Positions 9,284 through 61,115 of a DNA stretch of 64,000 nt are shown here, in pieces. Position 1 is the first letter of the stretch. Each line of letters opens with the position of its first letter. The notes under the pieces are model-generated. The model was not told where the DNA came from. It made no database searches and saw only the letters and a program-made list of their open reading frames with translations. The position numbers and the translations under genes were made by a program. Source of the stretch: Synechococcus sp. CC9616 (GTDB lineage Bacteria; Cyanobacteriota; Cyanobacteriia; PCC-6307; Cyanobiaceae); contig NZ_KI911558.1 in assembly GCF_000515235.1 (NCBI RefSeq), forward strand, positions 2,145,466-2,209,465. Reading direction: 5' to 3'.

Positions 9284-10285
9284 ATGAGACGATTTTGGTT
9301 AGGCTTGCATCAGGACGTAACTCGGCCTCTGGGAGGTGTAAAGCAGATGCATAGGTTAGGGGAGGTTATTGAGGAATTGGGTTATCAAGCTACACTTATT
9401 CAAGAAGATGCAAATTTTCACCCAGGTTGGTTTAGTAGTAAATTGCCAACCATTTCCTATGACAAATGGTTGAACAGAGGTGGATTTACGTCAATTGAAG
9501 ATGTTCTAATTTTGCCTGAGACATTCATCAATTCACCTTTATTGTTACGAGACGACTTATGTAAGGTAATATTTAATCAAAATGTATCCTACAGCTTCGG
9601 CACGCCAAGTTTTCCAGATAACGTTTTTCCGTCGCCAGATAATATTGTTAGTTTGTATCACTCGGATTTAATCTCCAAGATTTTATGTGTTTCTCGTTCT
9701 GATCAGCTATTTCTTCGTTCTGCCTTCGGTCTGGCCGAATCGCGTGTAGGTTTGATTATTAATGCAGTAGAAAGTAATCTATTTTTTCCACATAAGCGTA
9801 AGAAGCTTCAGGTAGCTTTTATGCCAAGAAAGAATTCCCATGATTGTAAGGCTGTTATATCTTTGCTTAAGCGTCATTCCTGGTTTAAGGGCTGGTCTGT
9901 TTGCCCAATTACAAACTGTACGCAAGATCAGGTTTCCAAGCTCATGAAGGATTCTCTGATCTTTCTATCATTTGGACATCCCGAAGGATTTGGCTTGCCG
10001 GTGGCTGAGGCTTTATCTTGCGGATGTTATGTAATTGGGTATTCGGGCTTAGGCGGTCGTGAACTATTTAGACACTCATCTTCTTTTAATGCATCCAATG
10101 AGATCATGGTTGGTGATTGGCTTGGGTTCCTTTCGGCTATCAAGTCTTTTATTGATCAATTTAATGCAGATCCAAATTCTGTCTTCAAAAATTTACTACT
10201 TTGTTCTAAATCTGTACGAAAAACCTATAGTTTTGATGCCATGAAGCGTAGTGTCGATGCCGCATTTGCAGGAATCGTTAGATAA
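9284..10285 (+). CDS. Glycosyltransferase, GT4 family (group 1)
   Basis: The ATG gives MRRFWLGLHQDVTRPLGGVK; a TTG three codons earlier at 9275 is also in frame. The protein is about 333 residues. The C-terminal half has SFGHPEGFGLPVAEALSCGC and YSGLGG, the E-x7-E nucleotide-sugar-binding motif of GT4 enzymes. The gene stands alone on the plus strand, divergent from the sulfatase. About 240 bases with no gene follow before the convergent sulfotransferase. Confidence 0.82.
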   Translation: MRRFWLGLHQDVTRPLGGVKQMHRLGEVIEELGYQATLIQEDANFHPGWFSSKLPTISYDKWLNRGGFTSIEDVLILPETFINSPLLLRDDLCKVIFNQNVSYSFGTPSFPDNVFPSPDNIVSLYHSDLISKILCVSRSDQLFLRSAFGLAESRVGLIINAVESNLFFPHKRKKLQVAFMPRKNSHDCKAVISLLKRHSWFKGWSVCPITNCTQDQVSKLMKDSLIFLSFGHPEGFGLPVAEALSCGCYVIGYSGLGGRELFRHSSSFNASNEIMVGDWLGFLSAIKSFIDQFNADPNSVFKNLLLCSKSVRKTYSFDAMKRSVDAAFAGIVR

Positions 10286-10526
10286 TTAATTTATTAACTT
10301 ATTCTCTGCATCGAGCGCTTTCACGATTTTTTGGATAACTGCTTATCGTGTTAATTTTAATAATGTTTTATATTTTCCTAATGTTTGAACATATGCTTTT
10401 GTCCCACCAGAAATTTATTGCGAGTTGCATGTTCATCGTAGCGGTCTTGATTCTATTCAATAATTCATTGTATTTATAGGCCTGTCTGGCGATTTTTAAT
10501 GTTTTAAAGCATGCCGTTTGCTGAAA

Positions 10527-11276
10527 CTATTTCAATTTGTTTGCCCAATCCCAGCCAAATCCATAGCGTTTTTGTACGCCAATGGCAGTGGCTAACAATT
10601 TTTTTCGTAGAATATCACGTAATAACTGATCAATAGTTTTTCCCTCCGGCTCGCCCGCATTCGCCTTTGCCATGTTTGTTTGATACTTCTGAGGCTGTAA
10701 TTCGAGGAAGCTCTGCAAGTTATCCCAACTACCACTGGGGTCCTCAAAGAATGTCTCGCTTTTCATGACCAACAACTGTTCAGAGGGGAACAGTGCCTCG
10801 TATCGATCTAGTTGCTCGAGATAAAGACTGCGACTTAGATAGCTGTGTTTTTGCAGACTATAGGGATCTTTTGTTGCTAGCCGTTTACACTCAGCCTTTA
10901 ACGCATCTGCAGGCTCCAACCTCTCAAACCCCCGTTTGCGGGCATGGAATACCTGAGAGAGTGCCCTTTCCACTGGGTCCCTGAGCAAAACGATCAGCTT
11001 CACGTTTGGTAGCAATGCTTTGATTCTCCTCGGCGCCTCGGGGTGGTACAGATAAAATGGGGTGATTTCCCCACAGTGTTGATCTTTACCAGCTTTATCG
11101 AAGTGGTGTGCGTACCACTCGACTGGTCGCTTGTGATTTAGATCGAAATAATGCACTTCCTTGCATGCAGGCAAAAACACCTGTGGGTGTGATGCCAGCA
11201 GCTGATGCAGCGTGGTGGTTCCGCCCTTCTGGGTGCCAAGGCCGAGGAAGTGGGGAAGATGGCTTTTCTCGGTCAT
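10527..11276 (-). CDS. PAPS-dependent sulfotransferase (heparan-sulfate-type family)
   Basis: A 249-residue protein. FLGLGTQKGGTTTLHQLLAS (10-29) is the 5'-phosphosulfate-binding loop and LLRDPVERALSQVF (97-110) the 3'-phosphate-binding motif of PAPS sulfotransferases. The family moves sulfate from PAPS to a hydroxyl or amino group, usually on a glycan. KEVHYFDLN (39-47) is also family-typical. It is transcribed divergently from secA with about 60 bases between them. Base composition is nearer the backbone than that of the upstream island genes. Confidence 0.88.
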   Translation of the reverse strand: MTEKSHLPHFLGLGTQKGGTTTLHQLLASHPQVFLPACKEVHYFDLNHKRPVEWYAHHFDKAGKDQHCGEITPFYLYHPEAPRRIKALLPNVKLIVLLRDPVERALSQVFHARKRGFERLEPADALKAECKRLATKDPYSLQKHSYLSRSLYLEQLDRYEALFPSEQLLVMKSETFFEDPSGSWDNLQSFLELQPQKYQTNMAKANAGEPEGKTIDQLLRDILRKKLLATAIGVQKRYGFGWDWANKLK

Positions 11277-14156: not shown

Positions 14157-14819
14157 CTATCTTCTAGGCAGTTGCTCTCTCGATTTCCAATCCCATTTGA
14201 ACATATGATTGTTGGCGACGCTTCCGGAAAATAGTGAATATTTTAATTTTGATTTTGTCAAGACGTAGGGGAATGAGAGTTGATCTTTTATCGTGAATAT
14301 ACAATTCTGAAGAAACCATTCTTGCATCAAGTAGCGCGCTGAGTAGTGATATGCAAAAAAGGTCATCTGAAAAAGTGCATTGTCGTTAAAATTTGAGTCT
14401 GCAAGGTAGCTATTGATTTGTTGATTGATCGGTTCGCCCTTAAAACGTTCATAGAAGTAGGGTAGATCAGGTCTGGTTTTTCGAGTAATAACTTGAGCTT
14501 CTTCTTCAATGGTGTGGAGCGATGGATGCTTGAACAAACATAATGGTGCCCCTTGAGATGTTTTAAGGACTTCTTCCGGCAAGTCGCTCTGTGGATTGAT
14601 TCTGATAGATGAATCCATCCAGATATACCAGTCGGCTTTGTGAAAGCGCCATTCGAGCATTTTGGGTATTTTTGATTTCAACCTTGTATGCATGGCCATC
14701 TCTCTGCTATGCGTATTGTTGTCATCATAATATTTGAAGGAAAAATTATGTTTAGATTGAGGTGTGATGTCCCAAGGTTTTTTTGAGCCGAAATGGGCAG
14801 ATACAATACGAAACTTCAT
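14157..14819 (-). CDS. DUF616/glycosyltransferase-like protein
   Basis: A 220-residue protein. KYYDDNNTHSREMAMHTRLK followed by ADWYIWMDSSIRI (62-74) matches the layout of DUF616-type putative glycosyltransferases, where the WxD segment acts like a DxD motif. NDNALFQMTFFAYHY follows. The gene is AT-rich, unlike secA and the glycosyltransferases on either side, so it looks like a single-gene insertion. It is convergent with secA (about 14 bases between stops) and lies downstream of the cysE-sulfotransferase-glycosyltransferase operon. Function beyond the sugar-transfer fold is unknown. Confidence 0.6.
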   Translation of the reverse strand: MKFRIVSAHFGSKKPWDITPQSKHNFSFKYYDDNNTHSREMAMHTRLKSKIPKMLEWRFHKADWYIWMDSSIRINPQSDLPEEVLKTSQGAPLCLFKHPSLHTIEEEAQVITRKTRPDLPYFYERFKGEPINQQINSYLADSNFNDNALFQMTFFAYHYSARYLMQEWFLQNCIFTIKDQLSFPYVLTKSKLKYSLFSGSVANNHMFKWDWKSREQLPRR

Positions 14820-27756: not shown

Positions 27757-28467
27757 TTGGCATGTAATTTGAAGCGCAAACTTCAGTTTGTACACATTGG
27801 CAAGTGCGGAGGTTCTACACTTAAAACAGCACTTTATCGTTCAACGGTAATTGCTGAAAAATATTCTTCTTTTTTTGAATCACACATCAATGGTGTGGTT
27901 GTTGATCCTAGCTGTGATTATTTTTTTTGTGTACGCAATCCCATAGAAAGGGCTTTTTCGGCTTTTGAATGGCGAAAAAAGCTCGTTCTTGAAGACTTGG
28001 CTTCACATCAAATTGATCGCTTCCCCGGAGAGGCAAAAATTCTCAGTAAATATAAAAGCCTTGGTAACATCGCTCGATCTTTGTATCGGCCTAATAACCG
28101 GCTTGATCAGGCTGTAGCAAGAGATTTCCGATCCGTGCACCATTTACGAGAGTCGATATCTTTTTACTGCCAACCTTTATTTGGTGTTCTTACTCCTTCC
28201 AATCTTTTTGGCGTTGTTTGTCAGGAGACTTTAGTTGAGGATTGCTCCAGGATTTTGGGAATAGACGCATCAGGCATGCGAGAAAGAAGTAACTTATCCA
28301 AGAGGCGTATTGATCAGGATCTTGATGCCAAGGCCCTCGGTAATTTAAAGAGATTCCTTGTTGAAGATTATCAATGTCTTGCAGTACTTTGGAGTCTTGG
28401 CGCGCTTAGTGATCAACAGTTTTGGCATGTCATGACTTCATCTGCTGATAAGCAAGCTTCAATCTAA
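27757..28467 (+). CDS. Sulfotransferase family protein
   Basis: About 236 residues with a TTG start at 27757; a second TTG at 27769 is equally possible, and no ATG fits. LQFVHIGKCGGSTLKTAL is the PAPS loop and FCVRNPIERAFSAFEW the 3'-phosphate motif. The gene is AT-rich and sits just after the GC-rich sigma factor gene, with its own terminator behind it, so it looks like a single-gene insertion. A glycan acceptor is likely but unproven. Confidence 0.75.
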   Translation: MACNLKRKLQFVHIGKCGGSTLKTALYRSTVIAEKYSSFFESHINGVVVDPSCDYFFCVRNPIERAFSAFEWRKKLVLEDLASHQIDRFPGEAKILSKYKSLGNIARSLYRPNNRLDQAVARDFRSVHHLRESISFYCQPLFGVLTPSNLFGVVCQETLVEDCSRILGIDASGMRERSNLSKRRIDQDLDAKALGNLKRFLVEDYQCLAVLWSLGALSDQQFWHVMTSSADKQASI

Positions 28468-28572: not shown

Positions 28573-29247
28573 TTAGCGAAGAGTTGCTCCCCCTTGGGTG
28601 GGATTCCAAATCCAATTTTTGTTAGCTACTCGCACGTTCCGTAGAAATGTGGTCATTGCATCAAAATTCTTGATGGAATTTGTTGCGCACCCAAAAAGAT
28701 GGATAGGGTAATTTGACTGATCAGGCATTTCTCCAACTTCTATGGCGGTAACGATCTTAAAATATGATTTAATTTGTTGAGCCCACCAGTCTGATGGAGC
28801 AACTAAAAAATGTGCATTTCTTTTATCAGATGTTTTTTTTGAGGCAGGAAGTAAGTCAATGCAAAAGAAAAAAAAGGCTGGGTCAAGTGTTTTTATTTCT
28901 TTGAGAGTTTCGCCAATGTTTTCTCTGCCAACATGTTCGAGTACGTCAATTGATGTAATGATGTCAAATGGATGATCGGGGAGTTGCGAAAATTCCGTGA
29001 CTGCAGGATCGTAGCCATAGGCTTTCGCGGGAACTGATGTATCTTCATTGATGGCATTGACAAGTCCTCCTTTTCCGCATCCATGATCAAGAATATGTTG
29101 GATCGGTTGGACTTGATGGGCGGCAGCGACGGCTAGTGGAATAGTTAGCTCATGTTTCATTGATCCTTTTGTGTTGTATTCTGATGCTTTTCCAAAAGAA
29201 GAATTTTTTTTGTGTAATTCTTTGGAGGCTTCAAGGAAGTTACTCAT
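28573..29247 (-). CDS. SAM-dependent methyltransferase, class I
   Basis: A 224-residue protein. HILDHGCGKGGLVNAI is the SAM-binding glycine-rich motif I, and DIITSIDVLEHVG is motif II/post-II as in small-molecule and sugar methyltransferases. The gene is AT-rich like the neighbouring sulfotransferase. It begins 14 bases after the alpha/beta hydrolase on the same strand, so it may be read from the RND operon transcript. Substrate unknown; a surface sugar is plausible from the accessory context. Confidence 0.75.
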   Translation of the reverse strand: MSNFLEASKELHKKNSSFGKASEYNTKGSMKHELTIPLAVAAAHQVQPIQHILDHGCGKGGLVNAINEDTSVPAKAYGYDPAVTEFSQLPDHPFDIITSIDVLEHVGRENIGETLKEIKTLDPAFFFFCIDLLPASKKTSDKRNAHFLVAPSDWWAQQIKSYFKIVTAIEVGEMPDQSNYPIHLFGCATNSIKNFDAMTTFLRNVRVANKNWIWNPTQGGATLR

Positions 29248-43582: not shown

Positions 43583-44686
43583 ATGAGTGTATTTTTGAAG
43601 CCTTCTTGCACTCTTGGTCGCAAGAAGGCTTTTTTTATGCACAATTGGCGTTGCGCGGGATCAACGATGAACTCATTGTTGTCGAGTAATTTTGGTAGCG
43701 CATATTTGAAGGTTGGTACTCAGTTTAGCGACTACGGATGGCCACGATATGATTTACCGGAAATTCTCACATTGAATGAGGTGAGAAGTAAGAGTCGCGA
43801 TGGTGGGATCCTAGGGGGACATCTTTGTTCTGGGATCGAGTCTTGTATTGGAGGTGACTGGGATTTATGGATCAATGCTCGCGACCCCTTGAAAAGACTT
43901 TCTAGTGGAATTGTTCGGTTTCATTCGAAAGCATTTGATTTTGTGGGTAATGATTTGGATTTCACAGGCTTTCAGCAGAAAGCTGTTGAAAAGCTCGAGG
44001 TGTTAATGGCGGGTCCACTTCGCCATGAGCAAAATGGTGTTGCTAAGCGCCTCGCAGGTTTAGCGATTGCCGACTCAGTCTCTTTTGATCGAGAATCAAA
44101 CTTAGAAACTCTGTCTTGTTTCCCGCTGAACTCTGAGCATGCATTGCTTTACGAGGTCGCAAAGAGTCAGCTTCAAAAAGTTAAGGTGTTTATTATTCCT
44201 GATTATTTGCATGCATCATTAATATGCATTGAAAAAATGTATGATCTCCCACCGATCATTAATTTATTTTCTGATTTGAAGCACAACCCGGTTCAGCTTG
44301 GGAAAGCAACAGCGTCTCAGAAGAAGATTTTTGAATATTCGCTTCCAAGGCTTCGTGAAATGTGTGCAATCGACTCACGCCTTTGGTTAGATATTAAGGC
44401 AAGGTTTAAGTCTTGCGTAAGCGATTTTCAAATCAGCAAGAAACAGATTGCAATTCGAGAAGCGATTCACGAAAATGGCCTGTTGAATCACAAAATACTT
44501 GAAAAATATTCTTCTGACGAAGAGATTATAAGTGCTATAGTGAGATCAATTTCTATACTTTGCAAAGGAAAGAAAGAGCTTGCAAAAGATATTGTCTTTG
44601 AAATTACCCGCTGGTCGCGCTTCGACCCTTCAGCAGCCACTGAGATTCGCGAAAGGGCTTTGACGGTTTTGGGATTGACTGCGTGA
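43583..44686 (+). CDS. Sulfotransferase-like protein with a terminator hairpin in its 5' end
   Basis: From ATG 43583 the protein has 367 residues. RKKAFFMHNWRCAGSTMNSL aligns with the PAPS loop of the sulfotransferase at 27757 (RKLQFVHIGKCGGSTL), and INARDPLKRLSSGIVRF is the 3'-phosphate motif. The strand before the loop (KKAFF) lies upstream of the alternative ATG at 43637, so the earlier start is favoured, although the ahcY terminator then falls inside the coding sequence. The gene is AT-rich, alone between ahcY and a DedA gene, and probably acquired. About 105 bases without features follow. Confidence 0.65.
   Translation: MSVFLKPSCTLGRKKAFFMHNWRCAGSTMNSLLSSNFGSAYLKVGTQFSDYGWPRYDLPEILTLNEVRSKSRDGGILGGHLCSGIESCIGGDWDLWINARDPLKRLSSGIVRFHSKAFDFVGNDLDFTGFQQKAVEKLEVLMAGPLRHEQNGVAKRLAGLAIADSVSFDRESNLETLSCFPLNSEHALLYEVAKSQLQKVKVFIIPDYLHASLICIEKMYDLPPIINLFSDLKHNPVQLGKATASQKKIFEYSLPRLREMCAIDSRLWLDIKARFKSCVSDFQISKKQIAIREAIHENGLLNHKILEKYSSDEEIISAIVRSISILCKGKKELAKDIVFEITRWSRFDPSAATEIRERALTVLGLTA
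43598..43636 (+). terminator. Strong Rho-independent terminator of ahcY, overlapping the next gene
   Basis: A 12-bp perfect stem (43598-43609 with 43620-43631, core GCCTTCTTGC/GCAAGAAGGC) with a 10-base loop, followed by T residues to 43636. It lies 65 bases after the ahcY stop. The 3' arm contains AAGAAGG, which could act as a ribosome site for ATG 43637. Confidence 0.9.
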
Positions 44687-55246: not shown

Positions 55247-55349
55247 GGGGCAGTTGATGTTCCGCGGACCCTAGTGGGGAGTGTCAACGAGCTGACCACC
55301 GGTACGATCACGGCGAAGCATTCGGTATTGCGTGAGCGAGTCCAGCGCC

Positions 55350-57434
55350 ATGGCTCCGGGCACCGTGCTGAACGATCGTTACAGGCTGGAGTCTGGGCTC
55401 TCTGACCCCGATCCGGTTCAGGGCTGCCTCTGGCTTGGAAAGGATCTTTTGGCGGGTGAGATTCCCGTGGTGATCCGACAGCTTCTGTCAGCGGACACCA
55501 CATCGAGATTCCAGCGCCACTGGCCCCTGCTGCAGTCGTTGCTGCACCCTCAGTTGCCACGCTTTGGTGAATTGCTGGAGGCGCAGGGAGCGTTCTGGGC
55601 GGTGAGGGATTGGCAGGACGGCAGCGGTTTCGATCAGATCCTCGAGCAGCGCCGTGAACGCCAGCTGGTGTTCGGTCCCGGCGAGGTGCTGCTACTCCTG
55701 CGTCAGATCCTGCCTGTGCTGGCTGTCCTGCATGGCCGCGGCGTTGTGCATGGCGATGTCAACCCCCGCAATCTGCTGCGCAGGCACAGCGATGGCTTGC
55801 CTGTGCTGTTGGACTTCGGCCTAGTGCAGGCCGATGGGGAAGCTCCTTTACCTGGAGCCTCGCCCGGTTATGCCCCGCGCGCCCAGGGGCGACAGGAATC
55901 CTGTGCTGCCTGGATGGATCTGCATGGGCTTGGGGTGACAGCGTTGGTGTTGCTGACAGGGCAAGCGCCGGAATCCCTCATCGCTGTTGATGCCAGCGAT
56001 TGGTCCTGGCCGGACGGCCTTGATGTACACAGTGCTTTTCGCTCTGCGCTGGAGCGTTTGCTGAGCGAAGACCCGCAACACCGCTTCGCAGCGGCAACTG
56101 AGGTGCTTCAGGCCCTTGAGGCGGTGCCTATGCCGGACAGCACCGGACCGATCGCACGCTCGGATCGCACCGTTGTTTTGGCGCCGGCTGCACCGGATTT
56201 GCCAGATCTCAAGCCGGTCTTCACAGACCCTGCGGCGTCCTCTTCACCGGGCACAGCTTCGGCTCAACCACGCCGACTGAGTCGGGCTGAAGAGCGGGAG
56301 CAGGGCGCTGAGGGACGTCTCTGGCCGGTGGTCGCTGCTTTGGTCCTTTCAGCGCTGGTGGGAACGGCGATCGGTTGGTATTTGTTGTCGCGAGGCGCAT
56401 CCAAAGGCACGGCGCCTTCCACCAGTCGCGATGTGGTGGGTCGTGCTCCCTCGGTGAGTCTTCCGCCGGCTGAAGTGGATGAGCGCCGGCAGTTGCTCAG
56501 CCGCTTGCGGGCGTTGCAGGTTGATCGCAGCTGGTTCCTCAAGCTCGTGGACAGCAGCCTGCTCAGCCGGTTCCCCGAACGGGGAGGCCGGTTGCCCAGT
56601 GATTCCCTGGAGGATGCCCCTCTCCGCCGCGTCTGGAATGACCTGGCCGAAGAGTGGCTCGCCAGAATTGAGCAGCTGCCACCTGGCCTCCGATCCAAGC
56701 TGGGACAGCTGAACGACGCCGACTGGCGTCAGCAGCAGCAGGTGCTCGAGAAACAGGGCGTTCATCCCCGTGTTGTGGAGCAGCTGGTCAGCGCTGCTGC
56801 GCGCAATCTGCTTCCCGGGGATTCCCAGGGTCGTAAGCCGCCGGAGCCGTACCGCCAGCTCTGGTATGCCGCAGCGGTTCAAAGCCTGGCTGACGTCAAG
56901 ATTGAGACGCTGGTCGCCAAGCCCAGGCAGGCCACCAACCTGTCGTTACGTATCCCAGCTGGTGGCGCTCGTCTGATCGCTGTCGCTGTCCCAAGCGGGT
57001 ATGGGCTGGTGATGGGGATCAATGGCACGCCGTTGATGCAGATGACCATCTACGGCTCTGAAGGGCAGGTGGAAACAGAGCGTGGTCCCCTGCGGGTGGT
57101 GACGCTGCCTGCGGAGATGAGCTCTCCGGTTCAGGTCCTGGTGACGAACGAGGGCGTTGCGTCCGGTCTGCTCACCTTGTCCTGCCGTGCGGACCAACCC
57201 AAGCGTCCTGTCACTCCGGCTCCTGTCAGGCCCGAGCTGAGGCCGCCGTTGCCGAACCCGATTCGCGAGCCAGATCCTGCGCTTGGTCCTGACCTCGAGA
57301 TCCCGACCGAACCAGTGCCGGATTCAGCGACAGGTGCTCCGATGCAGCCGGAGCCGCTGGCACCTACCGAACAACAGCCCTCCATGGAAAGGCCCTCCAT
57401 CGAGGTACCCCTGGTTCCGGATGATGAAACTTAG
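55350..57434 (+). CDS. Ser/Thr protein kinase-like membrane protein, probable pseudokinase
   Basis: ATG 55350 gives 694 residues; GTG 55332 adds six. The kinase-like domain is residues 1-260. [15 protein letters not shown] replaces HRD by HGD but keeps the catalytic Asp and Asn, and VLLDFGLVQ is the DFG motif. The VAIK Lys is Arg (VVIRQLL), the glycine loop is absent, and the APE-like Glu is missing (SPGYAPRAQ). One membrane helix ([20 protein letters not shown]) near 330 is followed by an exterior domain of about 300 residues ending in a Pro-rich tail. The stop overlaps the convergent smpB. Confidence 0.8.
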
Positions 57435-57925
57435 TAGCGAGCGATCGCTGCCTTCACTTCCTTTCTCACCTGTTTTTCCTTCTCTGCAGCTCTCTTGTCG
57501 TGCAGCTTGCGACCTTTGCCCAATCCAATGGTGATCTTGATCCAGGACCCCTTGAGGTGAAGGTTGAGTGGAATCAGCGCCAGTCCCTTCTGATCAAGCT
57601 GACCCCGCATCTTGTCGATTTCCCGGCGATGGGCCAGCAGTTTTCGGGTGCGTAGTGGGTCGTGATTGAAATAGCTGCCGGCATGGCTGTGGGGAGAGAT
57701 GTGCACGTTCATGAGTTGCAGCTCTCCGTTCCGGATCAGGCAGAAACCATCCCGGAGATTGGCTTTGCCGGCCCGGATGGATTTCACCTCAGTACCGACC
57801 AACTCGATTCCTGTTTCCAGTGTTTCGAGAATCTCGTACTGGTGGCGGGCCTGCCTGTTGTCCGCCAGAAGCCGATTGGCCGCAGCCCGTGCCGCCGCTG
57901 CGGCCTTTTTTCCTCCTTTCGCCAT
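57431..57925 (-). CDS. smpB: SsrA-binding protein SmpB, copy 1 (full-length)
   Basis: A 164-residue OB-fold protein: [37 protein letters not shown] and [16 protein letters not shown] are SmpB signatures. The C-terminal tail [20 protein letters not shown] is typical, and this tail enters the ribosome decoding channel in trans-translation. The Ala/Lys N-terminus is [16 protein letters not shown]. It overlaps the kinase stop by four bases. A near-identical N-terminal half recurs at 59,685-60,006. Confidence 0.95.
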
Positions 57926-57955
57926 GGCGCTGTCTGCCTTCCCCGACCCTATCTA
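57604..57955. repeat. Duplicated block, smpB 5' half plus upstream region (copy 1)
   Basis: This stretch matches 59,685-60,036 with about five mismatches by eye, all within smpB. The match continues weakly into the ruvB start region, and toward the smpB 3' end it drops to roughly 70-75 percent identity. Confidence 0.9.
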
Positions 57956-58015
57956 GTTCTGGGCAAATTGCCCGCATAGAGGTTGTCTCCTCCAGTTCCG
58001 CTTGCAAGCCTTCAC
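57926..58015 (+). pseudogene. Remnant of the ruvB 5' end left by tandem duplication
   Basis: The sequence upstream of smpB copy 1 parallels that upstream of copy 2, where ruvB starts. TTGTCTCCTCCAG is shared, but the ruvB ATG has become ATA (ATAGAGGTTGTC versus ATGGCGATTGTC) and similarity fades within about 30 bases. No open ruvB frame follows. Confidence 0.7.
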
Positions 58016-58047
58016 GCCGCCCTGCAGCGTTGGAGCTTTGTTTGCCT

Positions 58048-58077
58048 TTTGCATCAACGGTATACTGTTGATGCAAA
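58048..58077. repeat. 30-bp near-perfect palindrome at the duplication junction
   Basis: Arms TTTGCATCAAC (58048-58058) and GTTGATGCAAA (58067-58077) are perfect inverse complements. The centre GTATAC is itself palindromic, and only one base pair (58059 with 58066) fails to match. It lies between the ruvB and kinase remnants. It could be an operator, a recombination site or a hairpin; no T-run follows. Confidence 0.8.
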
Positions 58078-58098
58078 TTAATTTATTTAGAGCCAAGG

Positions 58099-58309
58099 GA
58101 GATGTTGTGCAAAAGCGCGGTCCTTTGCGTCTGGCCTGGATTGCGGAAGAGGGGGCTCGCCCTTGCAGGTGATGGTCACCAACGAGGAGGTCACATCATC
58201 TCTGTTTACACTGTCCTGCCGAGCCGATAATCCTCGTCACTTCAAGCTGGATGTTGACTTGAATGCGCTGCAGGATTTGGTAACTTGGGAGGTTGCTTCT
58301 ATAATTTAG
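58099..58309 (+). pseudogene. Remnant of a second kinase-like gene, 3' part
   Basis: SPLQVMVTNEEVTSSLFTLS then CRADNP (58157-58234) parallels [20 protein letters not shown] then SCRADQP in the kinase-like gene. Upstream, KRGPLRL matches ERGPLRV but in another frame, with a stop between, so a frameshift has occurred. After CRAD it diverges and ends TAG at 58307-58309. There is no start and no kinase domain. Its order relative to smpB copy 2 mirrors kinase-smpB copy 1. Confidence 0.8.
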
Positions 58310-58400: not shown

Positions 58401-59501
58401 TTAATAAAAGCCTTTCTCAAGCATCTCAAGGGCTTTGGTCCACGACAGAAGGTTGTTTTCTGGTTTAAAGCGTTCTAGAAAGGCTGGCCTTAATATCTCA
58501 TATTTACGGCATAATCTTTTATTCTCTTGAACAGCTTTTTGTAAAAGTAGTGAGAAATCTTTACCAATTAAACACACTTTATTTAGTTCCATATATGAAT
58601 CCATAGGACTTGCTATAGAAATACATCCATGCTGAATCGAGTCTGTGAGTCTGTTATGGCTGACTCCATTTTTAAGAGGATCTTTTGGATTAGAGGGTAT
58701 AAGTGAGATGTGGGAATTGCCAAGTTCTTTGACAAGTTGCTCTGGTTGTCTGTTCGCGTCCCAGGGAACAAATCGCAGAGTCCAGTGTTTTGATTGAGGT
58801 AAGCTTTTTGTCATTTGGTATTTGAATGCATTTAAGGCATTAGTAGACGCCAATACTGTGAGGACATAATTCATGTTTGCGTTTGAATTTTTTGTTAGTG
58901 GGGGCAGGATGTCTTGTAGGTATTCAATATTCTTATCGTTTCCAAACCAGATGAGTCTGCAAATCTGATTGGGCAGTAGCCTTTTGAAAGGCTGTTCTTC
59001 GAATAGTTGTGGATCTGTGATTGTAATTACTCTTGTTTGTGAAGCAACTCTTTTGAGAGCATGTTCCTTCATTTTTTTTGACGGTGTAATTACTAGATCA
59101 GATAAATAGAGTAAGTTTTTATACATTTCTCCGCCTTGATCCGCGTATTCGCAGATATTGTCTGAGTACATGCAGGCTATTTTTGCTCCCTTTCTTTTGA
59201 TGTTAAGGACAACATTTAAATGAAATTGGCAAAACTGATCACCGTTTTCTGTTGTCTTGTCGTGTCGCATCTTGCCGATAAAGCATATATCTGGCTGACT
59301 AATTTTCTCTATTTCTTTAAATGTATATCTTATATTATAAGAGAGAACTTGCAGATCGTAACCATTTTTTTTGAGGCATTTCATGAGTGGAAGTGTCTGC
59401 AGCCTGTCGCTCGCTAGTGTTGTTCTACCCTTCCAAATCGCGTCGGTAATGTCTCGATGCACTCCTGTGCAAGGTATTAAAATAAGTGCTTTCTTATTCA
59501 T
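58401..59501 (-). CDS. Glycosyltransferase-like protein (GT-B/GT4-type), inserted
   Basis: A 366-residue protein. ALILIPCTGVHRDITDAIWK opens a Rossmann-like first half; LYLSDLVITPSKKMKEHAL and RLIWFGNDKNIEYLQDILPP lead into the second half, where SLIPSNPKDPLKNGVSHNR and QHGCISIASPMDSYMEL match the donor region of glycogen-synthase-like transferases. The gene is strongly AT-rich inside GC-rich surroundings. It starts ten bases after the smpB copy 2 stop on the same strand and probably depends on that promoter. Confidence 0.7.
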   Translation of the reverse strand: MNKKALILIPCTGVHRDITDAIWKGRTTLASDRLQTLPLMKCLKKNGYDLQVLSYNIRYTFKEIEKISQPDICFIGKMRHDKTTENGDQFCQFHLNVVLNIKRKGAKIACMYSDNICEYADQGGEMYKNLLYLSDLVITPSKKMKEHALKRVASQTRVITITDPQLFEEQPFKRLLPNQICRLIWFGNDKNIEYLQDILPPLTKNSNANMNYVLTVLASTNALNAFKYQMTKSLPQSKHWTLRFVPWDANRQPEQLVKELGNSHISLIPSNPKDPLKNGVSHNRLTDSIQHGCISIASPMDSYMELNKVCLIGKDFSLLLQKAVQENKRLCRKYEILRPAFLERFKPENNLLSWTKALEMLEKGFY

Positions 59502-59511
59502 GAATATATTG

Positions 59512-60006
59512 TTAATTTATCGCTTTAATGTCACTATAACTTTCACCTGACTGTTTTTCTTTTGCGGTTGCGCGTTTGTCAAGCAACTTCCGGCCTTGGT
59601 CTAGGCTATTCGTGATTTTGATCCACGACCCTTTGAGATGAAGATTGAGCGGGATCAGCGCCAGACCTTTCTGATCGAGTTGGCCACATAGCTTGTCGAT
59701 TTCGCGGCGATGGGCCAGCAGTTTTCGGGTGCGTAGTGGGTCGTCATTGAAATAGCTGCCGGCATGGCTGTGGGGAGAGATGTGCACGTTCATGAGTTGC
59801 AGCTCTCCGTTCCGGATCAGGCAGAAACCATCCCGGAGATTGGCTTTACCGGCCCGGATGGATTTCACCTCAGTGCCGACCAACTCGATTCCTGTTTCCA
59901 GTGTTTCGAGAATCTCGTTCTGGTGGCGGGCCTGCCTGTTGTCCGCCAGAAGCCGATTGGCCGCAGCCCGTGCCGCCGCTGCGGCCTTTTTTCCTCCTTT
60001 CGCCAT
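59512..60006 (-). CDS. smpB: SmpB, copy 2 with altered C-terminal tail
   Basis: ATG 60006 gives 164 residues. Residues 1 to about 105 differ from copy 1 at only two visible positions (HQNEIL for HQYEIL, YFNDDP for YFNHDP). After that it diverges: [50 protein letters not shown]. The basic tail that copy 1 ends with ([11 protein letters not shown]) is replaced by an acidic/neutral end, so tail function in trans-translation may be impaired. It is divergent from ruvB, the usual neighbour, and followed by the inserted glycosyltransferase. Confidence 0.9.
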
Positions 60007-60036
60007 GGCGCTGTCTGCCTTCCCCGACCCTATCCA
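59685..60036. repeat. Duplicated block, smpB 5' half plus upstream region (copy 2)
   Basis: Partner of 57,604-57,955 in direct orientation. The sharp change from near identity to strong divergence inside one gene points to partial conversion or a recent short recombination tract. Confidence 0.9.
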
Positions 60037-60056
60037 GGTCTCGGTACCCTGCTTGC

Positions 60057-61115
60057 ATGGCGATTGTCTCCTCCAGCGCAGATCGCAGTCGTCCGTCAAT
60101 GGAGCGCCCCTCGAATGAGGTGCTCAATTCCTCTCCCACGCCCGACGAGGTTGGCTCCAGGCCTGATGACGGACTGCGTCCGCGCCGCCTGGACGACTAC
60201 ATCGGACAATCAGAACTGAAGCAGGTTCTTGGGATTGCTGTACAGGCGTCGAGCGCTCGCGGTGATGCCCTCGATCACGTCTTGCTGTACGGGCCCCCTG
60301 GCCTGGGCAAAACCACCATGGCTCTGGTGCTGGCTGAGGAGCTTGGGGTCTCCTGCAGGATCACCAGTGCTCCGGCACTGGAGCGCCCGAGGGACATTGT
60401 CGGGCTGCTGGTGAATCTGCAGCCAAGGGAGCTGCTGTTCATCGATGAAATCCACCGCCTCACAAGGGTTGCCGAAGAGCTTCTCTACCCGGCGATGGAA
60501 GACCGCCGCCTGGATCTCACGGTTGGCAAGGGCAGTACAGCCCGCACGCGATCACTGGAGCTCCCCCCGTTCACGTTGGTGGGCGCTACGACCCGCGCCG
60601 GTTCACTCAGCTCGCCACTGCGCGATCGCTTTGGCTTGATCCAGCGACTGGAGTTTTACGAACAAGCCGATCTCGAGGCGATCGTGGCGCGAACCGCCGG
60701 TTTGCTGGGGGTCTCACTGACGAGTTCTGCCTGTTCCAGACTTGCCGGATGCAGTCGAGGTACTCCACGGATCGCCAACCGTTTGCTGCGACGGGTCCGG
60801 GACGTGGCCAGCGTTCAGGGTTCCCAGGAAGCGATCGACGAGGCACTCGTGGCCCAGGCCTTGAGCCTGCATCGTGTCGATCATCGAGGCCTTGATGCCA
60901 GCGACCGGCGCCTGCTCACGTTGTTGATTGATCAGCATGGAGGTGGGCCCGTCGGCCTGGAGACGCTGGCGGCCGCTCTGGGTGAAGACGCCTCCACCCT
61001 GGAGTCCGTTGTGGAACCGTTCCTGCTGCAGCAGGGCCTGCTGATGCGCACACCCCGTGGACGCATGGTCACCGATGCAGCGCGCGCCCATCTCGATGGA
61101 GCAGAGGCGGCATGA
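60057..61115 (+). CDS. ruvB: Holliday junction branch-migration helicase RuvB
   Basis: ATG 60057 ([20 protein letters not shown]) gives 352 residues; upstream in-frame sequence is a shadow of smp[21 protein letters not shown], Walker [21 protein letters not shown], Walker [21 protein letters not shown] and sensor [18 protein letters not shown] are clear. The N-terminal ~45 residues before PRRLDDY are a variable extension. It drives branch migration with RuvA. The stop overlaps the TPR gene by four bases. Confidence 0.96.

Follow-up and report, generated by a model that had tools for sequence, protein, structure and literature searches.

Complementary hybrid smpB genes flank a predicted, AT-rich glycosyltransferase gene in a marine Synechococcus-like picocyanobacterium

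Campbell-type and ends-in (gap-repair) insertions leave reciprocal hybrid repeats on both sides of the inserted DNA, and gap repair makes both repeats resident. Genomic islands bearing glycosyltransferase (GT) genes are well known in picocyanobacteria. Passages of PMC7522525 mention one such island with a beta-glycosyltransferase, and passages of Johnston et al. 2013 (PMC3784515) treat merodiploidy and tandem duplication made by natural transformation, with an introduction that mentions how donor DNA with non-natural junctions gave tandem duplications, both by transduction and by transformation of B. subtilis.

The locus described here, in a stretch of 64,000 nucleotides (the window), has traits of each of these systems. 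As in the merodiploids of those passages, repeated or non-natural donor joints would go with a tandem duplication, hybrid junction copies and a new allele beside an intact essential copy; however, the duplications described there span ~100-900 kb between repeats in laboratory pneumococcus, whereas that of the window is ~2 kb long, stands in a cyanobacterial genome and combines parts from different lineages. With Campbell-type or ends-in insertion the locus shares reciprocal hybrid repeats around inserted DNA and resident sequence in both, but no vector is seen in the window and we infer the form of the donor molecule. Like the picocyanobacterial islands it holds a variable glycan gene amid conserved genes, although this is an AT-rich islet of one gene in a single core interval, that between kinase and smpB, and is linked to the smpB tail. 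The type of scar is already known, and the window locus is probably a natural merodiploid scar of gene acquisition; among the papers listed in literature searches, we found no account of smpB duplication or of an smpB-side GT in Synechococcus. We consider it likely that the GT was acquired with foreign DNA that recombined in smpB, the two hybrid smpB genes being the scar of that event and not its cause.

Layout of the locus and mosaic of its parts

The genome is a single contig of 2.65 Mb, and smpB is matched in it twice at E ≤ 0.001, both times inside the window. The features, with G186 denoting the nearest relative examined, are:

55332-57434, plus strand: resident serine/threonine-kinase-like protein (PF00069), 86.0% amino acid identity to G186, convergent with smpB1
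57431-57925, minus strand: smpB1, resident tail and core, 99.4% amino acid identity to the G186 SmpB; NCBIfam NF003843, 192.1 bits
57624-57953, minus strand: core shared with smpB2, 330 bp, with 4 mismatches (57664, 57767, 57794, 57838)
57954-58033, plus strand: non-resident smpB upstream and ruvB 5′ fragment, from identity to other genus members, diagnostic sites and alignments
58034-58040, no strand: seven bases between the ruvB and kinase fragments, from alignments
58041-58300, plus strand: non-resident kinase 3′ remnant, 59.5% to the resident kinase and up to 73.7% (G273)
58401-59501, minus strand: AT-rich predicted GT-B-type glycosyltransferase, 366 amino acids (ORF list), from composition, family motifs and predicted fold
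59512-60006, minus strand: smpB2, a hybrid, probably decaying; conserved residues changed
59512-59704, minus strand: smpB2 tail, diverged from the resident tail, 74.7% to the smpB1 tail and 70.0-76.0% to 23 genus relatives
59705-60034, minus strand: smpB2 core, resident type, 98.2% to smpB1 over 334 bp, 89.8% to G186
60035-61115, plus strand: resident smpB-ruvB interval and ruvB (ATG at 60057); RuvB 95.7% amino acid identity to G186, and 60007-60130 95.2% identical to G186

Read in this direction, a resident kinase and the resident tail and core of smpB1 are followed by a foreign upstream region with a ruvB 5′ end, a foreign kinase 3′ end, the GT, a divergent smpB2 tail, a resident core and the resident ruvB. 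As the original prediction had it, the GT lies between smpB2 and a kinase remnant that adjoins it (at about 58041-58300), starts 10 bp past the smpB2 stop on the same (minus) strand, and is far more AT-rich than its surroundings, with 37.8% GC against ~64% in its neighbours (kinase 63.8%, ruvB 63.5%; smpB1 has 56.6% and smpB2 53.7%).

The two smpB genes are complementary hybrids. G186 has one smpB match, no GT match and the plain order kinase - smpB - ruvB, and at the DNA level smpB1 is 90.0% identical to it in the tail, 90.1% in the core and 60.8% in the upstream region (57955-58033), which reaches 79.7-81.0% to seven genus members (G256, G197, G004, G207, G249, G234 and G061); for smpB2 the values to G186 are 76.0% in the tail, 89.8% in the core and 94.3% upstream. 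Between themselves the copies differ at 4 of 330 positions in the core, 38 of 150 in the tails and 31 of 79 in the upstream regions, and the edges of the core are sharp, the left one between 57610 and 57664 and the right one at 57954.

The same pattern appears at diagnostic sites, that is, positions that distinguish the resident type from another clade, for which we chose a list of 14 genomes (12 for the kinase). Upstream of smpB1, 14 of the 17 sites are of the other clade, 2 are other and 1 is resident, whereas upstream of smpB2 all 17 are resident; in the kinase remnant, 18 of 27 sites belong to the other clade, 7 are other and 2 resident. The core, taken as a control, gives in both copies 25 resident, 6 clade-type and 8 other among 39 sites. 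The complementary resident and foreign flanks expected of hybrid repeats made by homologous recombination are thus present, over short stretches of 79-330 bp, though the smpB2 tail is divergent without a clear clade signature. Its 13 sites split into 7 resident and 6 clade-type, which does not support assigning it to the clade of the other foreign pieces, and the best among the matches listed for it come from another genus (78%, 151 bp) and from G186 (82%, 114 bp). With such values, the tail speaks against taking a single source for all non-resident pieces as established.

Behind the upstream region of smpB1, the ruvB fragment carries ATA at the position of the start codon and is followed, after the seven bases, by the kinase remnant; this ruvB/kinase joint was not seen in any of the relatives' loci compared. 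Inside the remnant, 58048-58077 forms a 13-pair hairpin with a T-rich tail, which is probably inherited from the kinase, because the aligned kinase genes of G061, G273 and the G138 locus (L138) show weaker inverted matches at the same position.

The two SmpB proteins differ in their state. smpB1 passes the NCBIfam cut-off of 130 bits, its tail matches those of relatives except at R154, and its H72M change and two-residue gap are both common to G186; it is probably the working copy. smpB2 also passes both SmpB cut-offs (168.3 bits against 130 and 145.3 against 119.1), but compared with 23 relatives it alone carries Y30N, H88D, I133N, G134S, G136D, K137Q, H142L and A147T, and K154 is G in smpB2 and R in smpB1. 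All nine positions changed in smpB2 are conserved in at least 22 of the 23 relatives, the core differences at 57664 and 57838, two of the four, arose on the smpB2 side and alter residues identical in 23 of 23, and the 10-residue C-terminal tail of the relatives' SmpB is not kept, a pattern that probably reflects decay under relaxed selection.

The kinase-smpB interval in related genomes

The GT family occurs in 8 of 34 genus genomes with that of the window counted (7 of 33 others), and none of the seven others has it more than 7 kb from smpB. In four of them it stands directly behind smpB on the same strand, with gaps of 14 bp (G279), 4 bp (G089), -1 bp (G197) and 2 bp (G297), and these four homologues have 37-41% GC. 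The kinase is on the far side of the GT in three of the four (G279, G089 and G197), while the G297 contig stops inside the GT; G004 and G273 carry theirs on the ruvB side of smpB, about 6 kb away. Neither the AT-richness of the GT nor its short distance to smpB thus sets the window site apart.

Each of these four genomes has one detected smpB match, those of G279 and G297 being incomplete (83% and 77%). The original prediction held that a spare smpB came first and served as a safe landing site, and named the presence of the GT without a second smpB in relatives as evidence to the contrary. Such cases were found, and they contradict the landing-site reading; since these homologues share 35-44% identity with the GT of the window, they are not the same gene and show the arrangement, not the actual donor. 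As these loci read, closeness behind smpB is a property of the GT's usual locus, for which no spare smpB is needed. That smpB was duplicated first in the lineage, with the GT then inserted behind the spare copy and altering its tail, is in our view very improbable: the GT does adjoin the more changed copy, smpB2, and the events are not directly dated, but in addition to the four relatives with a single detected smpB, the upstream region of smpB1 and the kinase remnant are nearer to another clade, which a decayed resident duplicate would not give. Duplication within the lineage is insufficient because decay cannot raise similarity to another clade, and with two pieces that are not of resident type, it is more plausible that the acquisition produced the duplication than that the duplication came first.

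A single smpB is the rule in the DNA examined at all 80 named loci kept for the window SmpB, which come largely from Synechococcus, Cyanobium and Prochlorococcus records and from which records of the window's own genome may be absent. Of the 64 at which the kinase was found, 62 have it ≤424 bp from smpB. One of the other two, L084, is the GT-bearing contig of G279. The second, L109, seemed to have an insertion of 1312 bp between kinase and smpB, but this was an artefact of alignment: tblastn had missed the low-complexity end of the kinase, whose ORF runs to within 9 bp of the smpB stop. Setting aside the window genome and G162, one smpB was likewise found in each of the 22 genus genomes with an examined locus, a count that does not cover ten genus genomes included in the GT search (G300-G309). 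Outside the genus, more than one smpB match was found in G176, G223, G230, G232 and G271, and the regions of G230 and G271 were scanned as comparison loci. In five loci (L134, L142, L144, L147 and L148, of G279, G112, G285, G207 and G131) the C-terminal part of the kinase-like protein alone matches, from about residue 295-319, which suggests repeated loss of the kinase domain.

A second smpB pair is present in G162, in the order kinase (internally shortened) - smpB remnant - three GTs - opposite-strand ORF - intact smpB - ruvB, where the remnant is the 3′ part of smpB in two frames. In its locus (L137, 5601-12000) the kinase has a large internal deletion, the GTs stand in tandem, and the opposite-strand ORF (9907-10908) is by resemblance a putative glycosyltransferase. 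Both smpB copies of G162 resemble ordinary members of their own clade, and a foreign origin of either is unsupported, with tails 90% identical to each other and to several relatives. In the tree, the smpB-locus GTs cluster weakly (72/30; 67% of bootstrap trees), the window GT groups with those of G279 and G089 (100/99), and the G162 GTs fall with G197 and G297 (90/90, branch not starred). As its GTs fall in another subgroup than that of the window, the G162 case looks independent of the window case.

The two copies in G162 could also be set beside those of the window as survivors of an ancient tandem duplication that preceded the clade split, was kept here and as the G162 remnant and was lost elsewhere, with recent conversion limited to the smpB core. 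Conversion tracts stop where homology drops, as at both core edges, and the smpB2 tail has no clear source. We nevertheless hold this history to be unlikely, because one smpB in 22 other genus genomes requires many losses, the smpB1 upstream region is of the other clade at 14 of 17 sites, and the window and G162 GTs belong to different subgroups.

The pairs may also be viewed together in a broader, tentative reading, which we find somewhat doubtful: the kinase-smpB interval would be a dedicated GT exchange site, at which at least two GT subgroups are swapped between distant strains through the smpB core and bring along their own SmpB C-termini. The window strain and G162 would then be merodiploid intermediates, in which the intact SmpB is protective and the hybrid copy serves the GT as both promoter and leader.

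Unusual last residues of SmpB do accompany the GT. They were found in four of the five proteins with a GT directly behind (smpB2, G089, G197 and G297, not G279) and in none of 20 others (19 relatives and smpB1), the ends being judged by eye; a simple count gives 0.0004, post hoc and for related sequences. The insertion may thus reach into the last smpB codons. The original prediction that the insertion may explain the changed smpB2 tail stands in so far as the divergent tail goes with the GT, but not as an insertion beside a spare copy.

A proposed route of entry

Coming back to acquisition together with foreign DNA, we propose that the ancestor of the window had kinase, smpB and ruvB in the plain order still seen in G186 and took up DNA from another picocyanobacterium with the layout [ruvB 5′ end / kinase 3′ end - GT - smpB tail]. 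The complementary hybrid smpB genes point to this DNA having been inserted through recombination within the conserved core of smpB, and the ruvB/kinase joint, unseen in relatives, suggests that the donor DNA had a non-natural joint, for example as a circularised or tandemly joined fragment. The products would be smpB1, with resident tail and foreign upstream region, and smpB2, with divergent tail and resident upstream region. After a plain single crossover at least one core should still hold a stretch of donor type, which speaks against this as the whole account; since both 330-bp cores are of resident type, gap repair or conversion must be added, and could have acted during the insertion or later. 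smpB1 would retain SmpB function, and smpB2 would by now be mostly a decaying leader gene for the GT.

Every version of these events requires one illegitimate ruvB/kinase joint. Such a joint could also come from homology-facilitated illegitimate recombination, in which one end of a linear donor crosses over in smpB and the other is joined without homology to the sister chromosome. Titles cited by PMC3784515 show this process to be known in transformable bacteria, and one non-homologous joint is indeed present; however, it predicts a resident ruvB upstream of smpB1, where the sequence is mostly of the other-clade type, and it works solely with a second donor piece, so that we rate it as decidedly unlikely.

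Delivery to smpB as cargo of an integrase-bearing island or a phage would fit the GT-bearing islands of picocyanobacteria noted at the outset. It is extremely improbable here, as the window has no tRNA, the ORF list gives no further ORF of typical integrase size in the kinase-ruvB interval, and the GT is unmatched among phages: none of 50,697 phage records was hit by tblastn at E ≤ 1e-3, and viral contigs had no match in a pattern scan, which detects close relatives only. There is thus no sign of an integrase-driven island at a tRNA by these measures.

For recombination of foreign DNA inside smpB, the preferred reading, the donor was sought by a DNA search of 400 family genomes, in which, among the matches listed outside the window's own genome, none exceeded 82% and none lay over the GT. 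Genes of the ComEC (PF03772) and DprA (PF02481) types are present in the genome; they permit DNA uptake but do not show it, because such families occur in many genomes, an E. coli control included. If the proposal is right, the locus would be a natural record of a single surface-glycan gene entering the streamlined genome of a cyanobacterium with no visible integrase, the route of entry being homology in an adjacent core gene and the scar a duplicated hybrid core gene. Tandem hybrid core genes that flank AT-rich single-gene islets would then be a rule by which to search for further cases.

The glycosyltransferase and other AT-rich islets

The window gene is most likely a GT-B glycosyltransferase, an assignment that draws on a family profile match and a predicted fold. 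The protein itself matched no Pfam family at E ≤ 1 and no NCBIfam family, and had one non-significant match in PHROGs, but motifs such as WFG, PS and SHNR are common to 19 related proteins from the searches, one of which matches PF13692 (group 1 glycosyltransferase) at E 1.7e-6. A structure model built from four sequences (mean pLDDT 81.2, pTM 0.75) has the two domains of the GT-B fold, and its PDB matches are mostly GT-B enzymes, the best being 6eji (E 2.3e-9, TM 0.64); the lone match of a sequence profile to a solved structure, at E 0.49, was discarded as chance. The predicted fold is like those of the GT4-type enzymes 6eji, 2jjm and HepE (4xsu), at TM of about 0.64-0.68, whereas sequence identity to them is 9-15%. 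Its probable role is sugar transfer to a surface glycan.

With its own genome counted, the protein was matched in 14 of 300 family genomes, and a sample of 399 genomes from the order gave 12 with a match to its profile, again including its own. Two of these 12 score low, G216 at 50.6 bits and G374 at 19.7 bits with internal stops, and the G216 match sits about 32 kb away from the G216 smpB.

The arrangement suggests co-transcription of the GT with smpB2, and read-through from a predicted smpB2 promoter is plausible because the gap between the two genes is 10 bp. A scan of the minus strand for promoter-like matches gave none within smpB2 or up to the GT start, and likewise none upstream of smpB2 to 60250; as that upstream region is also blank, the scan says little.

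Further AT-rich islets of one or two genes stand amid core genes of the window, at 14157-14819, 27757-28467, 28573-29247 and 43583-44686. Judged from translations, their genes resemble putative sulfotransferase, methyltransferase and sugar-related genes, and the genes beside them look like secA, a sigma factor and S-adenosylhomocysteinase. Two of the islets start about 24 and 49 bp past the stop of a core gene, in the same direction. No duplicated core gene was found beside them, a comparison of the window with itself at E ≤ 1e-6 giving the smpB pair and a repeat at 1014-1779 only. The latter consists of two direct copies in tandem, each about 375 bp long (1014-1386 and 1403-1779) and 72.7% identical to one another, and lies early in the first 11 kb of the window, which are mostly AT-rich.
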